33,749 bases of DNA from Claveliimonas monacensis. GTDB lineage: Bacteria; Bacillota; Clostridia; Lachnospirales; Lachnospiraceae. The notes below the pieces were generated by a model that searched no databases, was not told where the DNA came from, and worked only from the letters and a program-made list of their open reading frames with translations. The DNA lies in NCBI RefSeq assembly GCF_014982975.1, contig NZ_JADCKL010000017.1:1-33749 (forward strand), in the 5' to 3' direction. Made by a program: the position numbers and the translations under genes. Positions 2,595-25,861 of the stretch are shown here, in pieces; within the stretch, counting starts at the first letter, position 1, and every line of letters begins with the position of its first letter.

Positions 2595-4199
2595 ATGGAC
2601 AGTTGTATCTATGAAAACGGGAAGATTTTTACAGCAGATAAGGACAATCTCTACGGGGAAGCCATGTTTGTGGAGGATGGCCTGATCCGCAAAGTCGGGA
2701 CGGCAGAAGAAGTGGAAGAGATGGCTCCGGCGGGATGCGGCCGGGTAGACCTTGGAGGACGCCGGGTGATCCCCGGATTTGTGGACGCCCATATGCACCC
2801 TGTCATGCTGGCAGATTTCAGCCGGCAGATCTCAGCCCTGCCGCCTAAGATCCACTCCATAGAGGAGCTGGTAGAGGCAGTGCGGGAAAAGAGACAGGAA
2901 CAGGGGCCTGACAAATGGATCCAGGGCTGGGGATACGATGAAGGGAAATTCGCAGAGCGGCGATCCATCACCCGCTGGGACTTAGACAGAGGATGCAGCG
3001 ATGCCCCGGTGTCCGTGATCCGCACATGCGGGCATATCCGCTGTGTGAACAGCCGGGCGCTGGAGCTGGCGGGAATAGACCGCAATACGCCGGACCCGGA
3101 CGGAGGAGAGATCGAGAGGGACGAAAATGGAGAGCCCACAGGTGTGCTGAAGGAAAATGCCAGAAATCTCGTGCTCCCCTTTATGCCTGTGCCCGATAGG
3201 CAGGAGAAAGTGGAGAATCTGACAGAGCTTGGCAGGCTTCTCACTTCCCAGGGCATTGTGGCGGTGACGGATATGGGCAACCTGGACAGCGGGGACAATT
3301 ATCCGCTTTACCAGGAGGCGGCCAAAAAGGGATTCCTCCAGGAAGTGGGCGTGTACTACATGTGGGATTTCTTTATGGATGATCCGGACTTTTCGATCCC
3401 CAGGGAACGGTTTGACAGGAGGCAACAGATCTTTGTCTGCGGGCTTAAGCTCATAGGGGATGGCAGTGTCTCCGGGCGCACTGCATGGATGGCAGAGCCC
3501 TATCTGGGGACGGATTCCTGCGGGATCTCCGTGTGCAGCGACAGGCAGATGGAGACTGCTATCCGGTTCTGCAAGGAGAATCGCTGTCAGCTTTCCATGC
3601 ATGCCATGGGCGGCAGAGCCATTGAGCGGGTCGTGGACCGGGCAGCCAAAGAGGAAAAGTGGAATGACGGGCCGGAGCCCTATGTGCGGGTAGAACACAT
3701 TACAGATCCGTCTGCGGACAGTGTATGGAAGGCGGCCCGGAAGGGCATTGGTTTTGTGACCCAGCCCATTTTCCTGTATGCGGAGATCGAGAGCTATCTG
3801 AACAATCTGGGACCGGCATGGATGAAGCGGTGCTATCCGGTGCGTGACCTGCTGGACAGCCAGGTGAAGCTCTGCTTCTCTACAGACGCGCCGGCCACAT
3901 CCTGGGCAGTTCCCTCGGATCCTTTCCCCAACCTCAAGGGAGCAGTGACCCGCCGGGCCTGGGACGGGACAGACTGCGGACAGGAGCAGGCTGTGGACAT
4001 AGAGACGGCTATTATCCTATACACAAAAGAGGCTGCCCGGATGGCGGGATTTGACAGGCTGGGACAGCTGAGGGAAGGCTACAAGGCGGATTTTCTGCTT
4101 CTGGACCGGGATATCCTGGAGATCCCGGCTGAAGAGATCGATCAGGTGCAGGTGGAACAGACTTATATTGGCGGCCAATGCGCGTATCAACGGAGCTGA
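2595..4199 (+). CDS. YtcJ-type metal-dependent amidohydrolase
   Basis: 534 aa, starting 11 bases after GGAGGT. The family hydrolyses C-N bonds with a metal centre in a TIM barrel; members of this branch act on poorly known amides. Visible features: N-terminal beta-sandwich strand (NGKIFTADKDN), the first metal motif DAHMHP (H66, H68), GDGSVSGRTAWM, a metal His in LSMHAMGGRAIERV, RVEHI and the catalytic Asp in FSTDAP. The C-terminal KADFLLLDRD strand closes the sandwich. Length fits the family. There is no signal peptide, so it is likely cytoplasmic. It has its own promoter and lies between a PTS permease and an MFS gene. Substrate cannot be predicted. Confidence 0.85.
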   Translation: MDSCIYENGKIFTADKDNLYGEAMFVEDGLIRKVGTAEEVEEMAPAGCGRVDLGGRRVIPGFVDAHMHPVMLADFSRQISALPPKIHSIEELVEAVREKRQEQGPDKWIQGWGYDEGKFAERRSITRWDLDRGCSDAPVSVIRTCGHIRCVNSRALELAGIDRNTPDPDGGEIERDENGEPTGVLKENARNLVLPFMPVPDRQEKVENLTELGRLLTSQGIVAVTDMGNLDSGDNYPLYQEAAKKGFLQEVGVYYMWDFFMDDPDFSIPRERFDRRQQIFVCGLKLIGDGSVSGRTAWMAEPYLGTDSCGISVCSDRQMETAIRFCKENRCQLSMHAMGGRAIERVVDRAAKEEKWNDGPEPYVRVEHITDPSADSVWKAARKGIGFVTQPIFLYAEIESYLNNLGPAWMKRCYPVRDLLDSQVKLCFSTDAPATSWAVPSDPFPNLKGAVTRRAWDGTDCGQEQAVDIETAIILYTKEAARMAGFDRLGQLREGYKADFLLLDRDILEIPAEEIDQVQVEQTYIGGQCAYQRS

Positions 4200-4269
4200 T
4201 GGGCATTGATAGGGCTCGAATGTGTGGGCCCCGGCCGCCCCAGAGAGAGAAAAATATTTGAAAATCTAT

Positions 4270-4299
4270 TTGACTTTTTTTAAAATAAAGTGCTAATAT
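4270..4299 (+). promoter_or_regulatory. Promoter of the MFS gene
   Basis: TTGACT (4270-4275), 18-bp spacer of A/T-rich DNA, TAATAT (4294-4299). It lies 90 bp upstream of the translation start, and an intrinsic terminator structure lies in between. Confidence 0.6.
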
Positions 4300-4322
4300 A
4301 CGTATGTTGAGTAGCGGAAAAT

Positions 4323-4354
4323 GCGTAAGTCCAAACAGGGCTTGCGCTTTTTTT
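4323..4354 (+). terminator. Intrinsic terminator or attenuator in the MFS leader
   Basis: Ten-pair stem 4323-4332 with 4338-4347 (GCGTAAGTCC / GGGCTTGCGC, two G-T pairs), loop AAACA, then seven T (4348-4354). It lies downstream of the promoter at 4270-4299 and upstream of the start at 4389. It would therefore stop the leader transcript unless antagonised. No competing anti-terminator stem was identified by eye. Confidence 0.6.
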
Positions 4355-4388
4355 GTGCTTTTTGAAATTTGATAAAGGAGTGATTTTT

Positions 4389-5501
4389 TTGTCTGATCAA
4401 ACGAACCATGGAAAAACTCTGACAGTGAGCATTCTGTCCCTGTCTCTGCTGACGGTCATGGCTGGTGCGGCTGTGGCTCCTGCGCTGGGGGTCATTCAGG
4501 CACATTTTTCTGACACAAACCCGCTTTTTGTACAGATGATCATCAGCGTGCCGGCCCTGTTCATTGTCATTACCAACTTTATCTTCCCGAAGCTGTACAA
4601 AGTGTTCAGTGCCAAGACACTGGTGCTTATGGGCCTTTTGCTCTATACGGCAGGGGGCTGCGCGTCAGGCCTTTATGACAACATCTTCGCAGTGCTTGTC
4701 ATGCGGGCGCTTGTGGGGATTGGCGTGGGGATCATCATGCCCCTGTCCACAGGTCTTCTTTCTTATTATTTCGCTCCGGAAAAGCAGGTGAGACTGATGG
4801 GTTACTCTTCTGCCATGAACCAGATGGGCGGCGTGATCGCCACATTACTGTCCGGCCTTCTGGCAAACATCAGCTGGCGGGTCAGCTTCCTGGTGTATCT
4901 GATGGGCCTGATCAGCATTGTTTTGTGCCTTTTCTATCTGCCTAATGACAAGATCACCCAGGAGACACAGGCGAAAGAGGACAAGGGGAAAAAGGAGACT
5001 GCTGGAGGCGTCGGTGTGTTTCGAGTCAATATCATGTACATCCTGGCTATGTTCCTTCTGATGTCCACCTTTTTTATCTACCCGGCTAATTTTGCGATGG
5101 AGACCATCTCTGAGGGGATCATCCCGCAGAATTACATTGCGGTCATCATGGCAGGCATGGATTTTGTCGCCTTCTGCGGCGGCCTTTTGTTCGTGCGGGC
5201 CAAGAGGCTGCTGGGAGAAAAGACAAAGTTCCTGGCGCCCCTTTGCTTTCTGATCGGATATCTGCTGCTGGCGCTTCTGGGCGGATGGACCGGCACGCTG
5301 CTTGGCTCCGTCTTTGTGGGCTTTGCCAACGGAGCAGGTATCCCTTACATCATGTCAGAGGCCTCCATGAAAGCCGGCAAGGCGGCGGCCACTACGGTGA
5401 TGCCTCTGATCTCCGCGGATTCCAAGCGGAAAAGCAGAGTAAAGATTGTTTTATCGACTTACGCCCCTTTTTGTGCTATGATAATACAGTCATTATCTTA
5501 G
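4389..5501 (+). CDS. MFS transporter, apparently C-terminally truncated
   Basis: 370 aa from a TTG start eight bases after AAAGGAG (4374-4380). About ten membrane helices can be counted, with the MFS helix-4 pattern RALVGIGVGIIMPLSTGL and the helix-5 segment SSAMNQMGGVIA. Families of this type have twelve helices. After AAATTVMPLISA (around 5416) the protein becomes polar and unrelated (DSKRKSRVKI...), and the frame runs through what looks like the promoter of the next gene. This suggests a deletion that removed helices 11-12 and joined the gene to downstream intergenic DNA. It may be non-functional. Substrate unknown. Confidence 0.7.
   Translation: MSDQTNHGKTLTVSILSLSLLTVMAGAAVAPALGVIQAHFSDTNPLFVQMIISVPALFIVITNFIFPKLYKVFSAKTLVLMGLLLYTAGGCASGLYDNIFAVLVMRALVGIGVGIIMPLSTGLLSYYFAPEKQVRLMGYSSAMNQMGGVIATLLSGLLANISWRVSFLVYLMGLISIVLCLFYLPNDKITQETQAKEDKGKKETAGGVGVFRVNIMYILAMFLLMSTFFIYPANFAMETISEGIIPQNYIAVIMAGMDFVAFCGGLLFVRAKRLLGEKTKFLAPLCFLIGYLLLALLGGWTGTLLGSVFVGFANGAGIPYIMSEASMKAGKAAATTVMPLISADSKRKSRVKIVLSTYAPFCAMIIQSLS
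5454..5485 (+). promoter_or_regulatory. Probable promoter of the GTPase-NYN gene
   Basis: TCGACT (5454-5459), 17-bp spacer and TATGATAAT (5477-5485). It lies inside the 3' end of the truncated MFS frame, in line with that stretch being former intergenic DNA. Confidence 0.45.
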
Positions 5502-5520
5502 TACAGAAAGGGGTATTTTC

Positions 5521-8235
5521 ATGGAAAATACGTCTGAAAATATAGAAAAAAACGCAGAAATGCAGACCGCCGGACACCTCTGTGTGGGCCTTGTGGCTCA
5601 CGTGGACGCGGGGAAGACGACGCTGGCGGAGGGAATCTTATACACCACCGGCCAGATCCGCAGGCTGGGGCGGGTGGATCACCGGGACGCTTTCCTGGAC
5701 ACGGACCAGATGGAAAAGGACAGGGGCATCACTATTTTCTCCAAGCAGGCGGAGACAGTGATCGGGGATAAGAAGGTGACCCTTCTTGATACCCCGGGCC
5801 ATGTGGATTTCTCGGCGGAGATGGAGCGGACCCTGCAGGTGCTGGACTATGCGGTCCTTGTCATCAGCGGGGCGGACGGTGTCCAGGGACATGTGGAGAC
5901 ACTGTGGCATCTGCTGGAGAGATATCACATCCCGGTCTTTCTGTTTGTCAACAAGATGGACCAGGAGGGGACAGATGAGGAAAAGCTCATGGAGGAGCTG
6001 AAAAAGCGGCTCTCCGACGAGTGCGAGGATTTCTCGGATCTGGAAGAGTTTGATGAGCGGATGGCCCTCCACGATGAGGAGCTGCTGGAGCATTTCCTGG
6101 AGGGAAAGGCGCCGGATAGAGGGAGCATCCGCAGGCTGATCCGGGAGAGGCGGATTTTTCCCTGCTTCTTCGGCTCTGCTCTGAAAATGGAGGGAGTGGA
6201 GGCGTTCCTGGAAGGCCTGGGAATGTATATGGAGTACCCCGGGTGCCAGTCAGCGTTCGGGGCCAGAGTGTACAAGATCACAAGAGATGCCTCCGGTCAG
6301 CGGCTGACCCACCTGAAAGTGACAGGGGGATGCCTGCGGGTGAAAATGAATATGGACGCCTACATGGCGGATCCCGGTGAAGAGGGGGCTGCCGGCCAGC
6401 GGGTGACGGGACAGAAGATCGATCAGATCCGGATCTACGCCGGGAACAGTTTTCAGACGGTGCAGGAGGCCGGCGCCGGCATGGTCTGCGCTGTCACCGG
6501 GCTGGAGGGAACCTACTCCGGTCAGGGGATGGGATGTGAGACAGCCTCCGTCCTGCCGGTGCTGGAGCCGGTCCTGACCTACCGGATGCAGCCGCCGGGT
6601 GCCTGCGACGTGCACGGCCTGTATCTGAAGCTGAAGACGCTGGAGGAGGAGATACCGGAGCTCCACATTGTGTGGAGGGAAGAGACAAAAGAGATCCACA
6701 CCCAGATCATGGGGGAAGTGCAGATCGATGTCCTTAAGTCCCTGATCCGGGAGCGCTTTGGAGCGGAGGTCTCCTTTGACGAAGGCAGCATCGTGTACAA
6801 GGAAACCATAGAGGACAGTGTGGAGGGAGTGGGCCACTTTGAACCCCTGCGCCACTATGCGGAGGTACATCTTCTGCTGGAGCCGGGGGAGAGGGGAAGC
6901 GGTCTGGAGTTTGACGTTTCCTGCAGCCGGGACATGCTGGATGTCAACTGGCAGAGGCTGATCCTGACCCACCTGGAGGAGAAGCAGCACAGAGGGGTGT
7001 TGACCGGGGCGCAGATCACGGACATGAAGATCACGCTCATTGCCGGGCGCGCCCACCAGAAACACACCGAGGGAGGGGACTTCCGGCAGGCCACCTACCG
7101 GGCCGTCCGCCAAGGGCTGATGAAAGCCCGCTCCGTCCTTCTTGAGCCCTGGTACGAGTACAGGATCGAGGTGCCCCAGGAGATGATCGGCAGGGCTATG
7201 AACGATGTCCAGAGGATGAACGGAAGATTCGACGCGCCCCTTGTGGGGGAGGAGACTGCGGTGCTGACAGGCAGCGCTCCTGTGGCCACCATGCAGGGAT
7301 ATATGCGGGAGGTGCTGTCCTACACCGGAGGGCGGGGACGTTTCTCCTGCCGGCTGCAGGGGTACGAGCCCTGCCACAATCCGGAGGAGGTCATCAGCGC
7401 GTCCCTGTATGATCCGGAGGCGGATCTGGACAACCCTTCTTCTTCTGTGTTCTGTTCCCACGGTGCAGGGTTCGTGGTGCCCTGGTATCAAGTGGAGGAC
7501 TACATGCATGTGGAAGGGATGGAGACAGGGGAGGAAGAGCCGCAGGAAGAGATACTGACCGGGATAGAGGAGAGAAAGAGGCGCATCCACTCGGAGGTTA
7601 TCGACGAGGAGGAGCTGAAGGCTATTTTTGCGCAAACCTATGGAAATGCAGGGCAGAAGCGGACCGGATGGAAGCGGACCGTCCGCACGCAGGACAGTAC
7701 ATATAAGGCAAAAGGGACGCCAAAGAAACAGGGCAGGGAGTACCTGCTGGTGGATGGATACAACATCATTTTCGCCTGGGAAGATTTAAAAGAGCTGGCA
7801 AAGGATAATATTGAGGCGGCCAGGAACAAACTGATGGATGTGCTCTGCGACTACCAGGGATACAGGCGCATGACGCTGATCCTCGTCTTTGACGCCTACA
7901 AGGTGCCCGGAAATCCCGGGGAGGTGCAGAAATACCACAACATTCATGTGGTCTACACCCGTGAGGCGGAGACGGCGGATCAGTACATTGAAAAGGCAGT
8001 CCACGACATGGCCAGGGAGCACCAGGTAACGGTGGCCACCTCTGACGGGATGGAACAGATCATCATCATGGGCCAGGGGGCCCGCCGCATCTCGGCCAGG
8101 GATCTTCTGACGGAGATCCATGAGGCGCGAAAGGAGCTGCGCGCCCTGCATCTTGATCCCGCCCCGAAGATGAAGAGATACCTTTTGGAGGATGTGTCTC
8201 CTGAGGTGCTGGAGGAGCTGAAAAAGAAGGAGTAA
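5521..8235 (+). CDS. TetM/EF-G-like ribosomal GTPase fused to a Rae1/YacP-like NYN endoribonuclease domain
   Basis: 904 aa; ATG seven bases after AAAGGGG. Residues 1 to about 650 align in order with ribosomal-protection GTPases (TetM class): G1 AHVDAGKTT (26-34), G2 RGITI, G3 DTPGH (90-94), G4 NKMD (144-147), G5 GSALKMEG, then domains II-V. After a charged linker, residues about 741-885 form a NYN/PIN-like nuclease domain: LLVDGYNIIF (D745, N748), LVFDAYK (D791), ETADQYIE (D820), ATSDGMEQ (D842). This resembles YacP/Rae1, the ribosome A-site mRNA endonuclease of Bacillus subtilis. TetM-class proteins are about 640 aa and Rae1 about 170, so the length equals the sum. Inference: a GTPase that carries a nuclease to the ribosomal A site. 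Tetracycline resistance is doubtful because the tip-loop proline of TetM is Lys (K514) here. Confidence 0.85.
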   Translation: MENTSENIEKNAEMQTAGHLCVGLVAHVDAGKTTLAEGILYTTGQIRRLGRVDHRDAFLDTDQMEKDRGITIFSKQAETVIGDKKVTLLDTPGHVDFSAEMERTLQVLDYAVLVISGADGVQGHVETLWHLLERYHIPVFLFVNKMDQEGTDEEKLMEELKKRLSDECEDFSDLEEFDERMALHDEELLEHFLEGKAPDRGSIRRLIRERRIFPCFFGSALKMEGVEAFLEGLGMYMEYPGCQSAFGARVYKITRDASGQRLTHLKVTGGCLRVKMNMDAYMADPGEEGAAGQRVTGQKIDQIRIYAGNSFQTVQEAGAGMVCAVTGLEGTYSGQGMGCETASVLPVLEPVLTYRMQPPGACDVHGLYLKLKTLEEEIPELHIVWREETKEIHTQIMGEVQIDVLKSLIRERFGAEVSFDEGSIVYKETIEDSVEGVGHFEPLRHYAEVHLLLEPGERGSGLEFDVSCSRDMLDVNWQRLILTHLEEKQHRGVLTGAQITDMKITLIAGRAHQKHTEGGDFRQATYRAVRQGLMKARSVLLEPWYEYRIEVPQEMIGRAMNDVQRMNGRFDAPLVGEETAVLTGSAPVATMQGYMREVLSYTGGRGRFSCRLQGYEPCHNPEEVISASLYDPEADLDNPSSSVFCSHGAGFVVPWYQVEDYMHVEGMETGEEEPQEEILTGIEERKRRIHSEVIDEEELKAIFAQTYGNAGQKRTGWKRTVRTQDSTYKAKGTPKKQGREYLLVDGYNIIFAWEDLKELAKDNIEAARNKLMDVLCDYQGYRRMTLILVFDAYKVPGNPGEVQKYHNIHVVYTREAETADQYIEKAVHDMAREHQVTVATSDGMEQIIIMGQGARRISARDLLTEIHEARKELRALHLDPAPKMKRYLLEDVSPEVLEELKKKE

Positions 8236-8289: not shown

Positions 8290-8308
8290 GGAAAGGATGT
8301 TTTTCGAA

Positions 8309-8812
8309 GTGAGAGAACAGCTGACCAGGCAGGACGTGGAGAAGATCGAGAAAGAGATCGAGTACAGAAAGCTGGTTGTGAGAAAGAATGCCATAGAGGC
8401 GGTGAAGGAGGCCAGGTCCCACGGGGATCTGAGCGAGAATTTTGAGTACCATGCGGCCAAGAAGGATAAGAATCAGAACGAGAGCCGCATCCGCTATCTT
8501 GAGAGGATGCTGAAGACAGCCCGCATTGTGAAAGATGACGCGGCGGACGACGAGGTAGGCCTTGACAAGAAAGTGGAAGTTTATTTTGAGGACGACGACG
8601 AGACAGAAGTCTTTAAGCTGGTCACATCTGTCAGGGGAAGCTCCCTGAACGGGAAGATCAGCATAGAGTCCCCCATCGGCAGGGCGATCATGAAACACCG
8701 GGCAGGGGACAGAGTCTATGTGAAGGTCAATGACAATGCAGGTTATTATGTGGTGATCCGCTCCGTGGAGAAGACAGACGGGGAGGATGAGGACGCCATA
8801 CGGAAATATTGA
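8309..8812 (+). CDS. greA: GreA/GreB-family transcript cleavage factor
   Basis: 167 aa. Gre factors enter the secondary channel of stalled RNA polymerase and stimulate cleavage of backtracked RNA. The N-terminal coiled coil carries the acidic tip HGDLSENFEYHAAKKD, where the essential Asp and Glu are retained. The C-terminal FKBP-like domain ends with SPIGRAIMKHRAGDRVYVKV. I prefer the GTG at 8309, because the ATG at 8297 directly abuts GGAAAGG while the GTG is spaced 12 bases from it and matches the family N-terminus before the coiled coil. The downstream kinase-like gene starts 18 bases after the stop, so they are probably cotranscribed. Confidence 0.8.
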   Translation: MREQLTRQDVEKIEKEIEYRKLVVRKNAIEAVKEARSHGDLSENFEYHAAKKDKNQNESRIRYLERMLKTARIVKDDAADDEVGLDKKVEVYFEDDDETEVFKLVTSVRGSSLNGKISIESPIGRAIMKHRAGDRVYVKVNDNAGYYVVIRSVEKTDGEDEDAIRKY

Positions 8813-9561: not shown

Positions 9562-11310
9562 ATGAAAAAAGAAAGAAGCTTTCAGAGGAAGCTGCTGCCG
9601 ATCATACTGCTCCTGGCGGCAGTTCCTCTTTTTCTTTTCTCTATTCTGGCCCTGGTCAGTCTGCGGAGTATCCTGATAGACCGCTACCAGGATCAGGTGG
9701 ACAGTGATCTGGATCAGACGGAGAAGCTGCTGAATATTACACTGGACAGATACAGAGATGCGCTTGCCGCGGCAGGGACGGACGAAAAGTTCTGCCTGGC
9801 TGTGCAGAAAGTGCTGGAGGGGCAGGAGCCGGAGGCGGAAAGCAGAGGGGAAGTGGAAGAGCTGCTGGGGAGAATCTGCCGGCAGAGCACGGAAGCTGCA
9901 GGAATGACACTTGTCCTTGAAAACGGGGATTCATTTTACTACGATGTGTCGGCGGCGTCCGGACCGGAGGGTGGATGGATGGAGGAAGCTATGGCGGCCT
10001 GTGAGGGCTGGAAGGAGGATACAGACTTCTCTTTCTGCTGTCCGGTGCCGGATGAGATACAGACTGGCACAGGGAGTATTCATATCTTTGGTGTTTTCTG
10101 CCGTATTGTGTCTCCTGTAGATGGAGAAAGGGAAGGCACCCTTGTGGTCTGGCTGGACGAGAAAGTGCTGAGGAACACACTTGCCGGTGAAGACGGAATC
10201 CGGAGCTTTATCAGCGACGGGGATATAGTCATAAGCGCAACAGATCCTGGCGATATAGGAGGGAAACCGGAAGAGCTTTCCCGGGGAGACTACTATGTGC
10301 AGAGCATGATCCAGGAGGATACCGGGTGGAAGATCACAGAGCTTTACTCTCTTGAGATGTACCACTATACTCTGTTCAGCCAGCTTGCCTTTGAAGTTCT
10401 CATAGCTGTTGCGGTTATGGTGATCCTGGCGGTGATGGCATATCTTATGAGTGTGCCTTTGGTTCGCTCTGTCAGAAATATTGCGGGAGCCATGGCAGCG
10501 GCCAGAGAGGGAGACTTTTCTGTGCGGGTAGAGGAAAATCCGAAAAGTCCTTATGAACTGAACCGTATTGCGGAAGGCTTTAATGATATGGCTGAACAGA
10601 CGGGAAGGCTGATTGTACAGCTTAAACAGTCTGCGGAGGAACAGAAAAATGCAGAGCTGCAGGCGCTGGAAGCCCAGATAGATCCCCATTTTCTCTACAA
10701 TACGCTGGATACCATCAACTGGAAAGCCATTGAGAAAAATGAGATGGAGATCAGCGAGATGGTAGGGGCGCTGGCAGATATCCTCCGGTATTCTGTTATC
10801 AACGCGGGAGAGGAGTCGTCCATCCGCAGCGAACTGTACTGGCTGGAACAGTATGTGCTTCTGCAGCAGGAAAAGCTGGGAAAAGAGATCAAGATCAAAG
10901 TGGAGGCATCAGAGAGAATACAGAATATGAGGATTCACAAGCTTCTTCTGCAGCCATTTGTGGAAAACAGCATCCGCTACGGATTTCGGGGGAAGGAAGG
11001 AGAGTGCTGTCTGTACATTCGCATGACCTGCGAGGATGGATTTCTGCATATCCTGCTGGAGGATAACGGTCGGGGCATGGATGAGGAGACGCTTGACAGG
11101 CTGAATGACGGGACACAGACGTGGAGCGGACATGTAGGTGTGGAGAATGTAAGGAAACGTCTGCGGCTGTATTACTCTGAGCAGGCATATCTGCATTTTG
11201 AAAGCAGGCAGGGAGAGTCTGCCAGTGTTCACATTTATGTTCCTATACCAGAAGGAGAGGGTGATACATATGAAGATCGTGATCGTGGAAGACGAGGCGG
11301 CCATCCGTAA
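9562..11310 (+). CDS. YesM-type sensor histidine kinase
   Basis: 582 aa. Starts at the first base after the TAA of the preceding gene. N-terminal membrane helix at about 11-35, an extracellular sensing region (dCache-like in position) of about 230 residues, a second helix near 275-300, then HAMP (VPLVRSVRNIAGAM) and a coiled linker. The His_kinase domain has QIDPHFLYNTLD with phospho-acceptor H376, the N box QPFVENSIRYGF (N469) and the ATP motif DNGRGMD. This is the LytS/YesM class, whose partners are YesN-type regulators; one follows here, overlapping by 41 bases. Such pairs often control carbohydrate uptake, but no transporter is adjacent and the signal is unknown. Confidence 0.9.
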   Translation: MKKERSFQRKLLPIILLLAAVPLFLFSILALVSLRSILIDRYQDQVDSDLDQTEKLLNITLDRYRDALAAAGTDEKFCLAVQKVLEGQEPEAESRGEVEELLGRICRQSTEAAGMTLVLENGDSFYYDVSAASGPEGGWMEEAMAACEGWKEDTDFSFCCPVPDEIQTGTGSIHIFGVFCRIVSPVDGEREGTLVVWLDEKVLRNTLAGEDGIRSFISDGDIVISATDPGDIGGKPEELSRGDYYVQSMIQEDTGWKITELYSLEMYHYTLFSQLAFEVLIAVAVMVILAVMAYLMSVPLVRSVRNIAGAMAAAREGDFSVRVEENPKSPYELNRIAEGFNDMAEQTGRLIVQLKQSAEEQKNAELQALEAQIDPHFLYNTLDTINWKAIEKNEMEISEMVGALADILRYSVINAGEESSIRSELYWLEQYVLLQQEKLGKEIKIKVEASERIQNMRIHKLLLQPFVENSIRYGFRGKEGECCLYIRMTCEDGFLHILLEDNGRGMDEETLDRLNDGTQTWSGHVGVENVRKRLRLYYSEQAYLHFESRQGESASVHIYVPIPEGEGDTYEDRDRGRRGGHP

Positions 11311-20720: not shown

Positions 20721-22922
20721 ATGGACGGGACATTTGAGAAGAGAAAGAAGATCATCTATGAATTTATCTGTGATGATTTCTATATACCCATGAAACAAAA
20801 GGAGATGGCAGCACTGCTCCAGGTGTCGAAAGAGCAGAGAGGGGAGCTTAAAGAAGTGCTGGACAGTCTGGTGGATGAGGGTAAGATCTACGTCAGCAAA
20901 AAGGGAAAATACTGCAAAGGAGAGGCGCAGACACTCACCGGCGTGTACCAGGCTCATCCCAGAGGATTTGGATTCGTCACTGTGGAAGGCCGGGAGGAGG
21001 ATATCTTCATCGGCGAAGATGACACGGGCGGCGCATTCCACGGCGACACGGTGGAAGTGGCGCTGACACGGGACGGAAGCCACAGAAGAGACGGCCACAG
21101 GCAGCGGCAGGAGGGACGTGTCGTAAAGATCCTGTCCAGGGGGATGACCACCCTGGTAGGTCTCTACGAAAAGACAAAGAAGAAGAACTACGGCTTTGTC
21201 ATCCCGGACAACCGGCGTTTTCTGGAAGATGTGTTTATTCCGGAGGGGAGAGACGGAGGAGCCGTGGACGGACATAAGGTGGTTGTGGAACTGACTTCCT
21301 ACGGTGGACCGGGAAGGAAGCCGGAGGGAAAGATCACGGAGATCCTGGGGCATGTCAATGACCCCGGAGTGGACATTATGTCCATTGTGCGGGGGAGCGA
21401 TCTGCCCTGTGAGTTCCCGGAAAAAGTTCTGAATCAGGCAGGCCGGGTTCCGGACCATATCAGCGAAGCGGATATGGCGGGCCGGAAAGATATAAGAGAC
21501 TGGCAGATGGTCACCATAGACGGGGAGGACGCCAAGGATCTGGACGACGCTGTCTCCCTGACAAAGGAGGGAGACAGGTACGTGCTGGGCGTCCACATCG
21601 CGGATGTGGCCAACTACGTGCAGGAGGGGAGCGCCCTGGACCGGGAGGCCTTAAAGAGAGGGACGAGCGTGTACCTGGCAGACCGGGTGATCCCCATGCT
21701 GCCCCACCGCCTGTCCAACGGGATCTGCTCCCTGAATGCGGGGGAGGACCGTCTGGCCTTAAGCTGCATCATGACCATCGATGAGAACGGCGATGTGACA
21801 GACCACGAGATCGCGGAGACCGTGATCCGGGTAGATCAACGGATGAGCTACACAGGAGTCAGCAGGATACTTAAAGGGGAGGACCCGGAGGCGATAGAAA
21901 AATATCAGGACGTAGTGCCCATGCTCGCGCAGATGGCTGAGCTCTCCGGCATACTCAGGGACAGAAGACACAGGAGAGGCTCCATTGATTTTGATTTTCC
22001 GGAGGCCAAGTTGATCCTGGACGAGAAAGGCCGGCCGGTGGAGATCAGGCCCTACGAGAGAAATGCGGCCACACGGCTGATCGAGGATTTTATGCTGCTG
22101 GCAAATGAGACCGTGGCGGAGGAGTATTTCTGGAGGGAAGTGCCTTTTCTCTACAGGACTCACGAGGCGCCGGATGAAGATAAGATGAAGACTCTGGCGG
22201 CCTTTATCAACAATTTTGGCTACACCATGCACATCGGCAGCCAGAAAGTGCCGCCTATGGAAATACAGAAACTCATGGGCAAGATCGAGGGCACGCCCCA
22301 GGAGGCTCTTATCAGCCGGCTGGCCCTGCGCTCCATGAAGCAGGCAAAGTACACGCCGGAAAATACCGGGCATTTTGGCCTGGCCGCCAAGTATTATGCC
22401 CATTTTACATCCCCCATCAGGCGGTATCCGGATCTCCAGATACACCGGATCATCAAGGATGACCTGCGGGGACGGCTGAACGGGAAGAAGATGGAGCACT
22501 ACGAAAAGATCCTGCCTGAGGTGGCAAAGCAGACCAGCCAGACAGAGCGCCGGGCAGAGGAGGCGGAGCGGGAGACCGTGAAGCTGAAAAAGGCGGAGTA
22601 CATGTCGCAGCACATTGGACAGGTCTTCGACGGGGTAGTCTCCAGTATCACCAAATGGGGCATGTACGTGGAGCTGCCCAACACAGTGGAGGGTCTGGTC
22701 CACGTGACAGCCATGAGTGATGACCACTATGAATATTATGAGGATCGATATGAGATGGTGGGCAGCCACACGGGCCGGGTCTACAAGCTGGGCCAGGAGA
22801 TCCGGGTGAAGGTGACCGGGGCGGACTGTCTGCAAAGGACGATAGATTTTGAGATCGTGAAGGAAGGAGAGCCGGAAGATGGCGAAAAAGAAGACAGACG
22901 GGAAGATGATTGCCAACAATAA
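20721..22922 (+). CDS. rnr: Ribonuclease R
   Basis: 733 aa; processive 3'-5' exoribonuclease able to degrade structured RNA, and in trans-translation it degrades the faulty mRNA with SmpB/tmRNA. Order: N-terminal helix-turn-helix (about 1-65), cold-shock domains ([31 protein letters not shown]), RNB catalytic domain with DAKDLDDAV (270-278, metal-binding D270, D273, D275, D276) and HIADVANYV, and a C-terminal S1 domain ([20 protein letters not shown]). The end overlaps the smpB start by 44 bases, so translation is coupled. Confidence 0.92.
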
Positions 22923-23352
22923 AAAGGCATATCACGATTATTTTATACTGGATACCTATGAGGCCGGCATTTCTCTGGCGGGGACGGAAGTCAAGTCCCT
23001 GCGCATGGGAAAATGCAGCATCAAGGAGTCATTTATCCGCATTGAGAACGGGGAAGTCTGGATATACGGCATGCACATCAGCCCCTATGAGAAGGGGAAT
23101 ATTTTCAACAAAGATCCGCTGCGGGTGCGCAAGCTCCTTCTCCACAAGTCGGAGATCAACAAGATGACAGGGAAGATGAAGGAGAAGGGGATTGCCATTG
23201 TGCCTCTAAAGGTTTATTTTAAAGGCAGCCTTGTGAAAGTGGAGATCGGTCTTGCCAGGGGTAAGAAACTCTACGACAAGAGGCAGGATATTGCCAAGAA
23301 GGACCAGAAGAGAGAGGCAGAACGGGAATTTAAGGTGCGAAACTTCGGATAG
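22879..23352 (+). CDS. smpB: SsrA-binding protein SmpB
   Basis: 157 aa; ATG after AAGGAGAGCCGGAAG within the end of rnr. SmpB binds tmRNA and guides it to stalled ribosomes. Typical blocks: [69 protein letters not shown], and the basic C-terminal tail [17 protein letters not shown]. Its RNA partner ssrA lies 2.2 kb downstream, separated by three genes. Confidence 0.95.
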
Positions 23353-23638: not shown

Positions 23639-24109
23639 ATGGCATATTGTGTGAAGTGCGGAGCAAAGGTAGATGACGGGATACGGTACTGCCCATACTG
23701 CGGGGGCGAGATCCCTCTGGGTCAGGGACAGTACGATCAGCAGGGGCCTTATGACCAGACGAGGGAGGGGGCTTTTCACCCGGAGGATGTGAAGGCGAAC
23801 AAAGTGATGGCGGTTCTGTCTTACATAGGAATCCTAGTCCTGGTGCCTCTCCTTGCAGGAAATAAAAACTCAGAGTATCTGAGGCACCACATCAATCAGG
23901 GACTTGTGATATGGATCGGGAGCCTTCTGGCAGACATACTGTCCGGAGACAGCTTTCTGGGCTTTTCGCTCTTCTCCGTCTGGCCTCTTGAGATGGCAGG
24001 CGGCATCCTGAGCCTTGTGTGCTTCATCCTTATGATCGTGGGCATTGTGGATGCCTGCCGGGGTGTGAAAAGGGAGCTGCCCGTTGCGGGGGCTTTCAAA
24101 ATACTCTAG
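23639..24109 (+). CDS. Zinc-ribbon membrane protein (DUF4870-like)
   Basis: 156 aa; the ATG follows ATAGGAGGAAAATAAG. N-terminal zinc ribbon with C4, C7, C18 and C21 (CVKCG and CPYCGG), a Gly/Gln/Tyr-rich linker, then three membrane helices (about 54-74, 88-108 and 120-142) in a layout like DUF4870 proteins. Ends with ACRGVKRELPVAGAFKIL. Function is unknown. It is the last gene of the smpB cluster; no terminator is visible before the next promoter. Confidence 0.7.
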   Translation: MAYCVKCGAKVDDGIRYCPYCGGEIPLGQGQYDQQGPYDQTREGAFHPEDVKANKVMAVLSYIGILVLVPLLAGNKNSEYLRHHINQGLVIWIGSLLADILSGDSFLGFSLFSVWPLEMAGGILSLVCFILMIVGIVDACRGVKRELPVAGAFKIL

Positions 24110-25512: not shown

Positions 25513-25861
25513 GGGCTTGTACTGGTTTCGACGGGGGTTTGGAAGTTGGAGAAGCCATCCGTAGCGGGACACTACGTTAAAAGTTCCAATTAAATATAAA
25601 CGCAGACAATAGAGAATTAGCGTACGCTGCCTAATTTTGGCGGCAGTCGGCCTTAGGTCATCCGCTGCTTAAGATCCCGGCTTCAACAAGGCGGAGCACT
25701 TCGTCCTCAAAGCTTTGAGGGGATGGAAGACTTTATGAAGCTACTGAAACCGGAAGCCTGTCATTAGGCGGCCGGCAGAGGGAATGTCAAACTAATGACT
25801 GTGATGGGAGATGCTCTGATGGAAAGGCTTTCGGACGCGGGTTCGATTCCCGCCAGGTCCA
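25513..25861 (+). ncRNA. ssrA: tmRNA (SsrA)
   Basis: The tRNA-like ends pair: GGGCTTG (25513-25519) with CAGGTCC (25854-25860), discriminator A at 25861; CCA is not encoded. The 5' part has the typical TTTCGACGGGGG and the 3' T-arm reads GCGGGTTCGATTCCCGC. The tag frame starts at GCA 25602 and encodes ADNRELAYAA with TAA at 25632-25634. Rescues stalled ribosomes together with SmpB, encoded upstream. Exact ends are inferred from stem pairing. Confidence 0.92.

Follow-up and report, generated by a model that had tools for sequence, protein, structure and literature searches.

Rae1, also called YacP, is described in two reports as a nuclease of Bacillus subtilis that cuts messenger RNA (mRNA) in the ribosomal A site (PMC12320835, PMC10100781), and Tet-type factors likewise bind the A site according to a third (PMC8161019). 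A single chain that fuses the two therefore plausibly combines a GTPase of the factor site with a nuclease of the A site. In this study, the gene for such a fusion was analyzed computationally; it lies in a 33,749-nucleotide stretch of DNA from Claveliimonas monacensis (assembly GCF_014982975.1, contig NZ_JADCKL010000017.1), which is referred to as a whole as the window. The gene is the only YacP/Rae1 of this organism, and the fused form looks like the usual YacP/Rae1 of its family, the Lachnospiraceae. The Rae1 of B. subtilis consists of a single domain and its gene follows rlmB; in the window's organism the domain is instead attached to the C-terminal end of a GTPase, and the original yacP gene has been lost.

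The fusion architecture is already known and has been in print since 2015. Atkinson et al. (2015; PMC4342817) described Tet-NYN fusions in ten Clostridiales species and suggested ribonuclease (RNase)-based resistance. The window protein is one of these fusions, identified by that description, with which it shares the two-part architecture and the order of bacteria. Whereas those authors give ten species and file the fusions under Tet, here the fusion is seen in genomes across the family of the window as well as in some other families, and it lies outside the clade of plain Tet proteins. No later work on the fusion was found in a literature search whose reach mostly excluded subscription papers. 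In current annotation, the fusion and its relatives appear as 'translation factor GTPase family protein' or 'TetM/TetW/TetO/TetS family'.

A GTPase and a Rae1-like nuclease in one reading frame

The original prediction, made from the window alone, described the frame of 904 amino acids as a complete TetM/EF-G-type GTPase joined to an NYN domain of the YacP/Rae1 type. Pfam and PDB sequence matches agree with this description: the first part of the protein matches EF-G, TetO and TetM, and the last part matches YacP (5mq9/5mq8). The features of the gene are as follows.

5507..5513, + strand: AAAGGGG, putative ribosome-binding site 7 bases before the ATG (read from the sequence)
5521..8235, + strand: whole gene, GTPase-NYN fusion, 904 amino acids, ATG start (open reading frame)
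5575..6222, + strand: G domain, residues 19-234 (Pfam GTP_EFTU)
6262..6777, + strand: domains II and III, residues 248-419 (Pfam EF-G_D2 at 248-331, below its cut-off, and EFG_III at 349-419)
6787..7128, + strand: domain IV, residues 423-536 (Pfam EFG_IV)
7051..7086, + strand: domain-IV tip loop, residues 511-522, AHQKHTEGGDFR (alignment, conservation count)
7135..7380, + strand: domain V, residues 539-620 (Pfam EFG_C)
7381..7509, + strand: C-terminal extension, residues 621-663 (alignment, conservation count, model)
7510..7737, + strand: linker, residues 664-739, mostly with a predicted local distance difference test score (pLDDT) <50 (model; variable length and sequence)
7606..7641, + strand: short modelled linker helix, residues 696-707, around EELxxIF (model, alignment)
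7744..8226, + strand: NYN_YacP (Rae1-like) domain, residues 742-902 (Pfam, E 1.8e-52)

The frame is genuine, and an assembly accident is excluded because the fusion recurs across many genomes. A search for other proteins with the same two-domain order, as the original prediction had proposed, returned a near-identical locus in Eubacterium sp. ER2 and further loci in Lachnoclostridium, Mediterraneibacter, Dorea and [Clostridium] aminophilum.

The last part is assigned to the YacP/Rae1 NYN domains by its NYN_YacP match and by the presence of the conserved acidic residues. D745, N748, D791, D820 and D842, which are putatively catalytic, stand at the positions that the original prediction gave for them. 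Their lack of conservation in close homologues had been named there as a ground for abandoning the idea; they are invariant in 41/41 full fusions and in all 126 NYN domains kept for the NYN tree (84 fused and 42 separate frames, the separate set including L055 and L169, which are probably broken or split fusions). In a whole-protein search, residues 741-879 match Rae1/YacP of B. subtilis (5mq8, 5mq9) with E 1.6e-26, and the same five residues are found there, aligning to D7, N10, D53, D81 and D104 of 5mq9 (positions counted by hand). D7 and D81 are reportedly the residues mutated in work on Rae1. As a separate observation, residue 793, two past D791, is Tyr in 84/84 fused NYN domains, and its equivalent in the 42 separate ones is His in 25, Tyr in 13, Met in three and Gln in one.

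The first part belongs to the translational GTPases of the EF-G/EF2 group, with domains I-V (EF-G_D2 being a sub-cut-off match) and intact motifs for binding guanosine triphosphate (GTP): K32, T33, T71, D90, G93, H94, K145 and D147 are invariant in 41/41 full fusions. It resembles TetM/TetO and the Tet family in being a GTPase with EF-G-like domains I-V over residues 21-616, and its best NCBIfam match is tet_protect (NF012153; residues 21-615). However, the score of 404.1 bits lies below the curated cut-off of 775, identity to plain Tet-like proteins is only ~28-34%, and the fusion has a different domain-IV tip and a longer C-terminal extension. In a quick GTPase tree of 78 rows, the window GTPase falls outside the clade formed by the 11 plain Tet-like rows, which has a Shimodaira-Hasegawa-like approximate likelihood-ratio test (SH-aLRT) support of 100. 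The tip AHQKHTEGGDFR is common to the fusions and their unfused orthologs, whereas plain Tet proteins carry YYSPVSTPADFR and EF-G is also different. Among the 41 full fusions, T516 is conserved in 41, H512, H515, D520 and F521 in 40 each, and K514 in 37. The Tet-type loop III (SPVST with Pro509) is absent from the alignment of the window protein, in which Lys514 takes the place of TetM Pro509. This proline enters the tetracycline site according to PMC8161019; since a TetM triple mutant, S508A/P509A/V510A, is reported as still active in PMC4750697, the lysine is a hint only and no proof. The term 'ribosomal-protection-type' in the original prediction, if taken in the tetracycline sense, is thus not supported, given the cut-off, the separate clade and the different tip. 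Judged by sequence, the window protein is not a tetracycline-protection protein, and its GTPase part appears as a distinct sister lineage of these proteins.

Closely related to this part are unfused GTPases of 650-700 amino acids, such as that of Ligilactobacillus salivarius pMP118, which are 39-50% identical to the fusion up to about residue 663 and share its tip, but have neither linker nor NYN domain; RefSeq names them translation factor GTPase family protein, or TetM-like. In the C-terminal extension, at or shortly past the end of which the unfused relatives stop, F644, G648 and W655 occur in 41/41 fusions. An AlphaFold2 run on a 41-row alignment gave a mean pLDDT of 79.1 and a predicted template modelling score (pTM) of 0.60. 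Most of the GTPase, as far as about residue 660, and most of the NYN core score above pLDDT 80; the linker is below 50 at 668-695 and 705-736, with the helix at 696-707 between. Linker length and sequence vary among the domains of the NYN tree, and a strict ELxxIF-type motif is found in 24/41 fusions.

Distribution of the fusion and loss of the old gene

The family was surveyed with a Pfam NYN_YacP search of 250 Lachnospiraceae genomes, one per genus, 220 of which gave a match. The frame carrying the domain has at least 800 amino acids in 197 of these genomes, 445-738 in seven and fewer than 300 in 16, in a tally that joins two listings (150 matches, then the remaining 71 genomes). Two matches occur in five genomes, and at least three of these are contig-end pieces or a single gene aligned in two pieces; the window's own genome has one match only. 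A sample of 299 genomes from the phylum contains the domain in 155, mostly in frames of 165-210 amino acids, and fused forms outside the window's family were found in families f4, f7, f10, f14, f58, f61 and f73.

A truly separate yacP is present in 13 family genomes, namely 15 short-frame genomes minus G095 (probably a contig-end break) and G042. In the latter (locus L169, G042:C93:1567-11468), NYN and GTPase lie on overlapping frames, 3947-4519 and 4497-6632 (- strand), by natural split or frameshift. The separate gene stands directly behind rlmB in 10/13 family loci; stretches of sufficient length show the order cysE-cysS-mrnC-rlmB-yacP-sigH, and the seven phylum loci examined likewise all show rlmB-yacP-sigH. 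(In the family locus L161, CysE, CysS, RlmB and SigH were named by NCBIfam, and MrnC, an RNase III-domain protein, and NYN_YacP by Pfam.) At the old mrnC-rlmB-sigH place, no YacP match was found in 21/21 fused genomes examined; these loci were located via mrnC, with both RlmB and SigH recognized in 16, RlmB without SigH in four and only MrnC in one (G318). In the window's own genome, the place reads CysE-CysS-MrnC-RlmB-SigH with no YacP match, and 46 bases separate the RlmB match from the SigH match (locus L205). The domain has therefore moved onto the GTPase, and the separate gene has been lost.

Where GTPase and YacP are not fused, the orthologous GTPase still occurs in 9/13 family genomes with separate yacP, truncated in one (G099). 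It occurs in 0/30 family genomes without NYN; among these, a plain Tet-like gene is present in G213, and in G226 only residues 22-164 are matched. With three candidates scored per genome, the ortholog is found in 20/299 genomes of the phylum sample, 18 fused and two unfused, all 20 of which also have NYN.

In the GTPase tree, unfused orthologs branch first and the fusions form one clade (98) whose sister (99) is the GTPase of G202, which is unfused; the fusion clade includes two split or broken fusions, and the fusion of G178 lies outside it on a very long branch. This last protein (locus L199, G178:C1:1206000-1218500, frame 4674-7460) has a GTPase 25% identical to that of the window and intact NYN residues. 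In the NYN tree, the 13 separate family yacP genes form one clade (100/98), and the fusions of f10, f14, f58, f61 and f73 are nested among those of the window's family (100/99), which suggests transfer. Independent fusions were also considered: taken alone, the careful NYN tree needs five changes of the fused label, with long basal branches and a bootstrap that did not settle. A single clade of fused NYN domains is not rejected by the approximately unbiased (AU) test once long branches are set aside (p-AU 0.878; 62 fused and 33 separate rows, with 14 loci and near-copies omitted), and the constrained tree is even better. One fusion followed by transfers is thus a history that the trees allow.

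The whole fusion was found in two of 72,556 plasmid records, from Monoglobus pectinilyticus and Agathobacter rectalis, whose replicons measure 518 and 252 kb, and the unfused form occurs on Ligilactobacillus salivarius megaplasmids. On one of these, pMP118 (L226), the unfused GTPase adjoins a ribosomal protein S14 gene (3538-3807 and 3995-5929). The fusion is also present in two unannotated 'Bacteriophage sp.' records. One of them, MT835563.1 (L238), is marked UNVERIFIED, comes from human faeces and carries the whole fusion; the genes around it include those for an NAD(P)H-hydrate dehydratase and for a peptidoglycan-binding protein with additional matches to endolysin families. Given the mark and these neighbours, it may be bacterial DNA, and the neighbours do not settle whether the record is phage or bacterial. 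A search of PADLOC-DB for anti-phage defence gave no family at E 1e-3.

Proposed function and its alternatives

The resistance label is not borne out, and ribosome-linked mRNA cleavage by the family's own Rae1 is the most likely role. More specifically, there is about an even chance that the protein serves as a housekeeping mRNA endonuclease targeted to ribosomes, with its GTPase part bringing Rae1 to those that have paused. The GTPase in its GTP form would bind the factor site and the A site of a paused ribosome, with its own type of domain-IV tip sitting in the decoding centre and the NYN nuclease hanging behind the C-terminal extension on a flexible linker of some 75 residues. Because domain IV and NYN cannot occupy the A site together, the GTPase would act first, testing or clearing the A site. 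Hydrolysis of GTP would let domain IV withdraw, and most likely only then would NYN cut the mRNA in or beside the A site; alternatively, the cut might fall where the mRNA enters the ribosome, or on an adjacent ribosome. Once cut, the mRNA would leave behind a non-stop complex, to be handled by transfer-messenger RNA (tmRNA)-SmpB and RNase R. GTP-driven delivery of the nuclease, as suggested in the original prediction, may take place, although the competition between domain IV and Rae1 for the A site argues against a simple, simultaneous form of it.

A further-reaching version is proposed tentatively, with confidence clearly short of even: the Lachnospiraceae Rae1 would be the tail of a dedicated factor whose novel tip reads the state of the A site, which couples the mRNA cut to GTP hydrolysis and feeds tmRNA rescue, a GTP-clocked counterpart of A-site nucleases that is core to the family and misnamed as tetracycline resistance. 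If true, a gene named for tetracycline resistance or as a nameless translation factor would be the ribosome-associated mRNA nuclease of a dominant gut family, and a false entry would be removed from resistome counts. In addition, there would be a natural single-polypeptide system for studying the timing of A-site mRNA cleavage and its tie to ribosome rescue, and ready-made comparisons would be at hand in the linker, in the tip of domain IV and in other genomes where the pair is unfused.

Besides the A-site competition, several observations weigh against recruitment of Rae1 by the GTPase. Four of the 13 family genomes with separate yacP are without the orthologous GTPase (none in G007, G016 and G020; only a remoter Tet-like protein in G068), and most YacP proteins of the phylum function with no GTPase of this kind. 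In the class of G467 (probably Bacilli), where the unfused ortholog occurs in 38/299 genomes, YacP is present in 36/38 genomes with the GTPase and in 40/42 without, so that there is no association, and G744 and G815, both of the same genus, carry the unfused GTPase but lack YacP. The fusion of G178 keeps NYN with an altered domain-IV tip and no recognizable C-terminal-extension motif; the GTPase tip is therefore not needed everywhere. Furthermore, the pTM of 0.60 makes the placement of the domains in the model unreliable, and no biochemical or genetic evidence for the role of the fusion was found. An obligatory GTPase-YacP pair was rejected on account of the two counter-examples and the lack of association in the class of G467, which leave a pairing that is strong in the window's family and not obligatory elsewhere.

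Some of these observations favour a reading in which the halves are independent, NYN being an ordinary Rae1 that reaches the A site alone, the GTPase a separate rescue or back-translocation-like factor, and the fusion fixing only their ratio. Across the phylum, YacP is as a rule a separate protein, Rae1 of B. subtilis acts with no such GTPase according to PMC12320835 and PMC10100781, the class of G467 shows no association, and the linker is long and variable. However, the fused form has been retained family-wide while the old yacP was lost, and the ortholog occurs in 9/13 genomes with separate yacP as against 0/30 without NYN. The retention counts are not independent events, because the family genomes are related, and independence of the halves is considered rather unlikely. 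It is improbable that the protein is instead a tetracycline ribosomal protection protein with an acquired nuclease, freeing ribosomes of the drug and using RNase activity in resistance as Atkinson et al. (2015) suggested. That tet_protect is the best NCBIfam match, that an Agathobacter rectalis relative carries a RefSeq-derived TetM/TetW/TetO/TetS family annotation and that the 2015 study places such fusions with Tet speak for it. Set against these are the score of 404 bits against a cut-off of 775, the separate clade of plain Tet proteins at SH-aLRT 100 and the lysine in place of TetM Pro509, a missing proline that by itself proves nothing; the fusion also occurs in the majority of the family's genera, not in a patchy pattern, and the fused genomes G207, G318 and G541 have a separate, plainer Tet-like gene as well. 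Very improbable, too, is a nuclease for the maturation of stable RNA (ribosomal or transfer RNA) recruited to ribosomes or precursors. The old operon neighbours, the RNase III-domain protein of mrnC and the 23S methyltransferase RlmB, might point to such a nuclease, and maturation was the first proposal for NYN domains, as cited by Atkinson et al. (2015; PMC4342817). Nevertheless, the characterized relative, Rae1, is described as an A-site mRNA cutter, and a factor-site GTPase is better suited to translating ribosomes.

Neighbouring genes

Three genes of ribosome rescue lie about 12.5 to 17 kb downstream of the end of the fusion gene.

20721-22922: rnr, present in the window
22879-23352: smpB, present in the window
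25513-25861: ssrA, present in the window

The original prediction had pointed to these genes as other rescue genes in the same region. Their presence is confirmed; the argument from nearness is not. Other genes lie between, for example greA (8297-8812) and a histidine kinase gene (9562-11310). The tmRNA gene is 17.8 kb from the NYN start in the window genome, whereas in the 17 other fused genomes it lies on another contig in three and, in the remaining 14, at distances from 35 kb (the nearest, in G035) to 2.3 Mb. Functional linkage with rnr-smpB-ssrA was consequently rejected, the nearness being unconserved among the 18 fused genomes in which tmRNA was looked for. The idea that the fusion belongs to a conserved operon was rejected too, as no cluster of neighbours is common to more than five of 36 fusion loci.

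Several further features of the window were noted. A PurO-like protein resembling inosine monophosphate (IMP) cyclohydrolase (PF07826; 13352-14065) stands beside a separate AICARFT-type protein (PF01808; 14090-15268), and this split pair takes the place of one bifunctional PurH. A small zinc-ribbon protein of 156 amino acids (23639-24109) is encoded between smpB and ssrA. The frame before the fusion, of the major facilitator superfamily (MFS) type (4353-5501), has 382 amino acids in the window, and the same region in Eubacterium sp. ER2 (L009, 4700-5922) holds two shorter frames of 235 and 186 amino acids.

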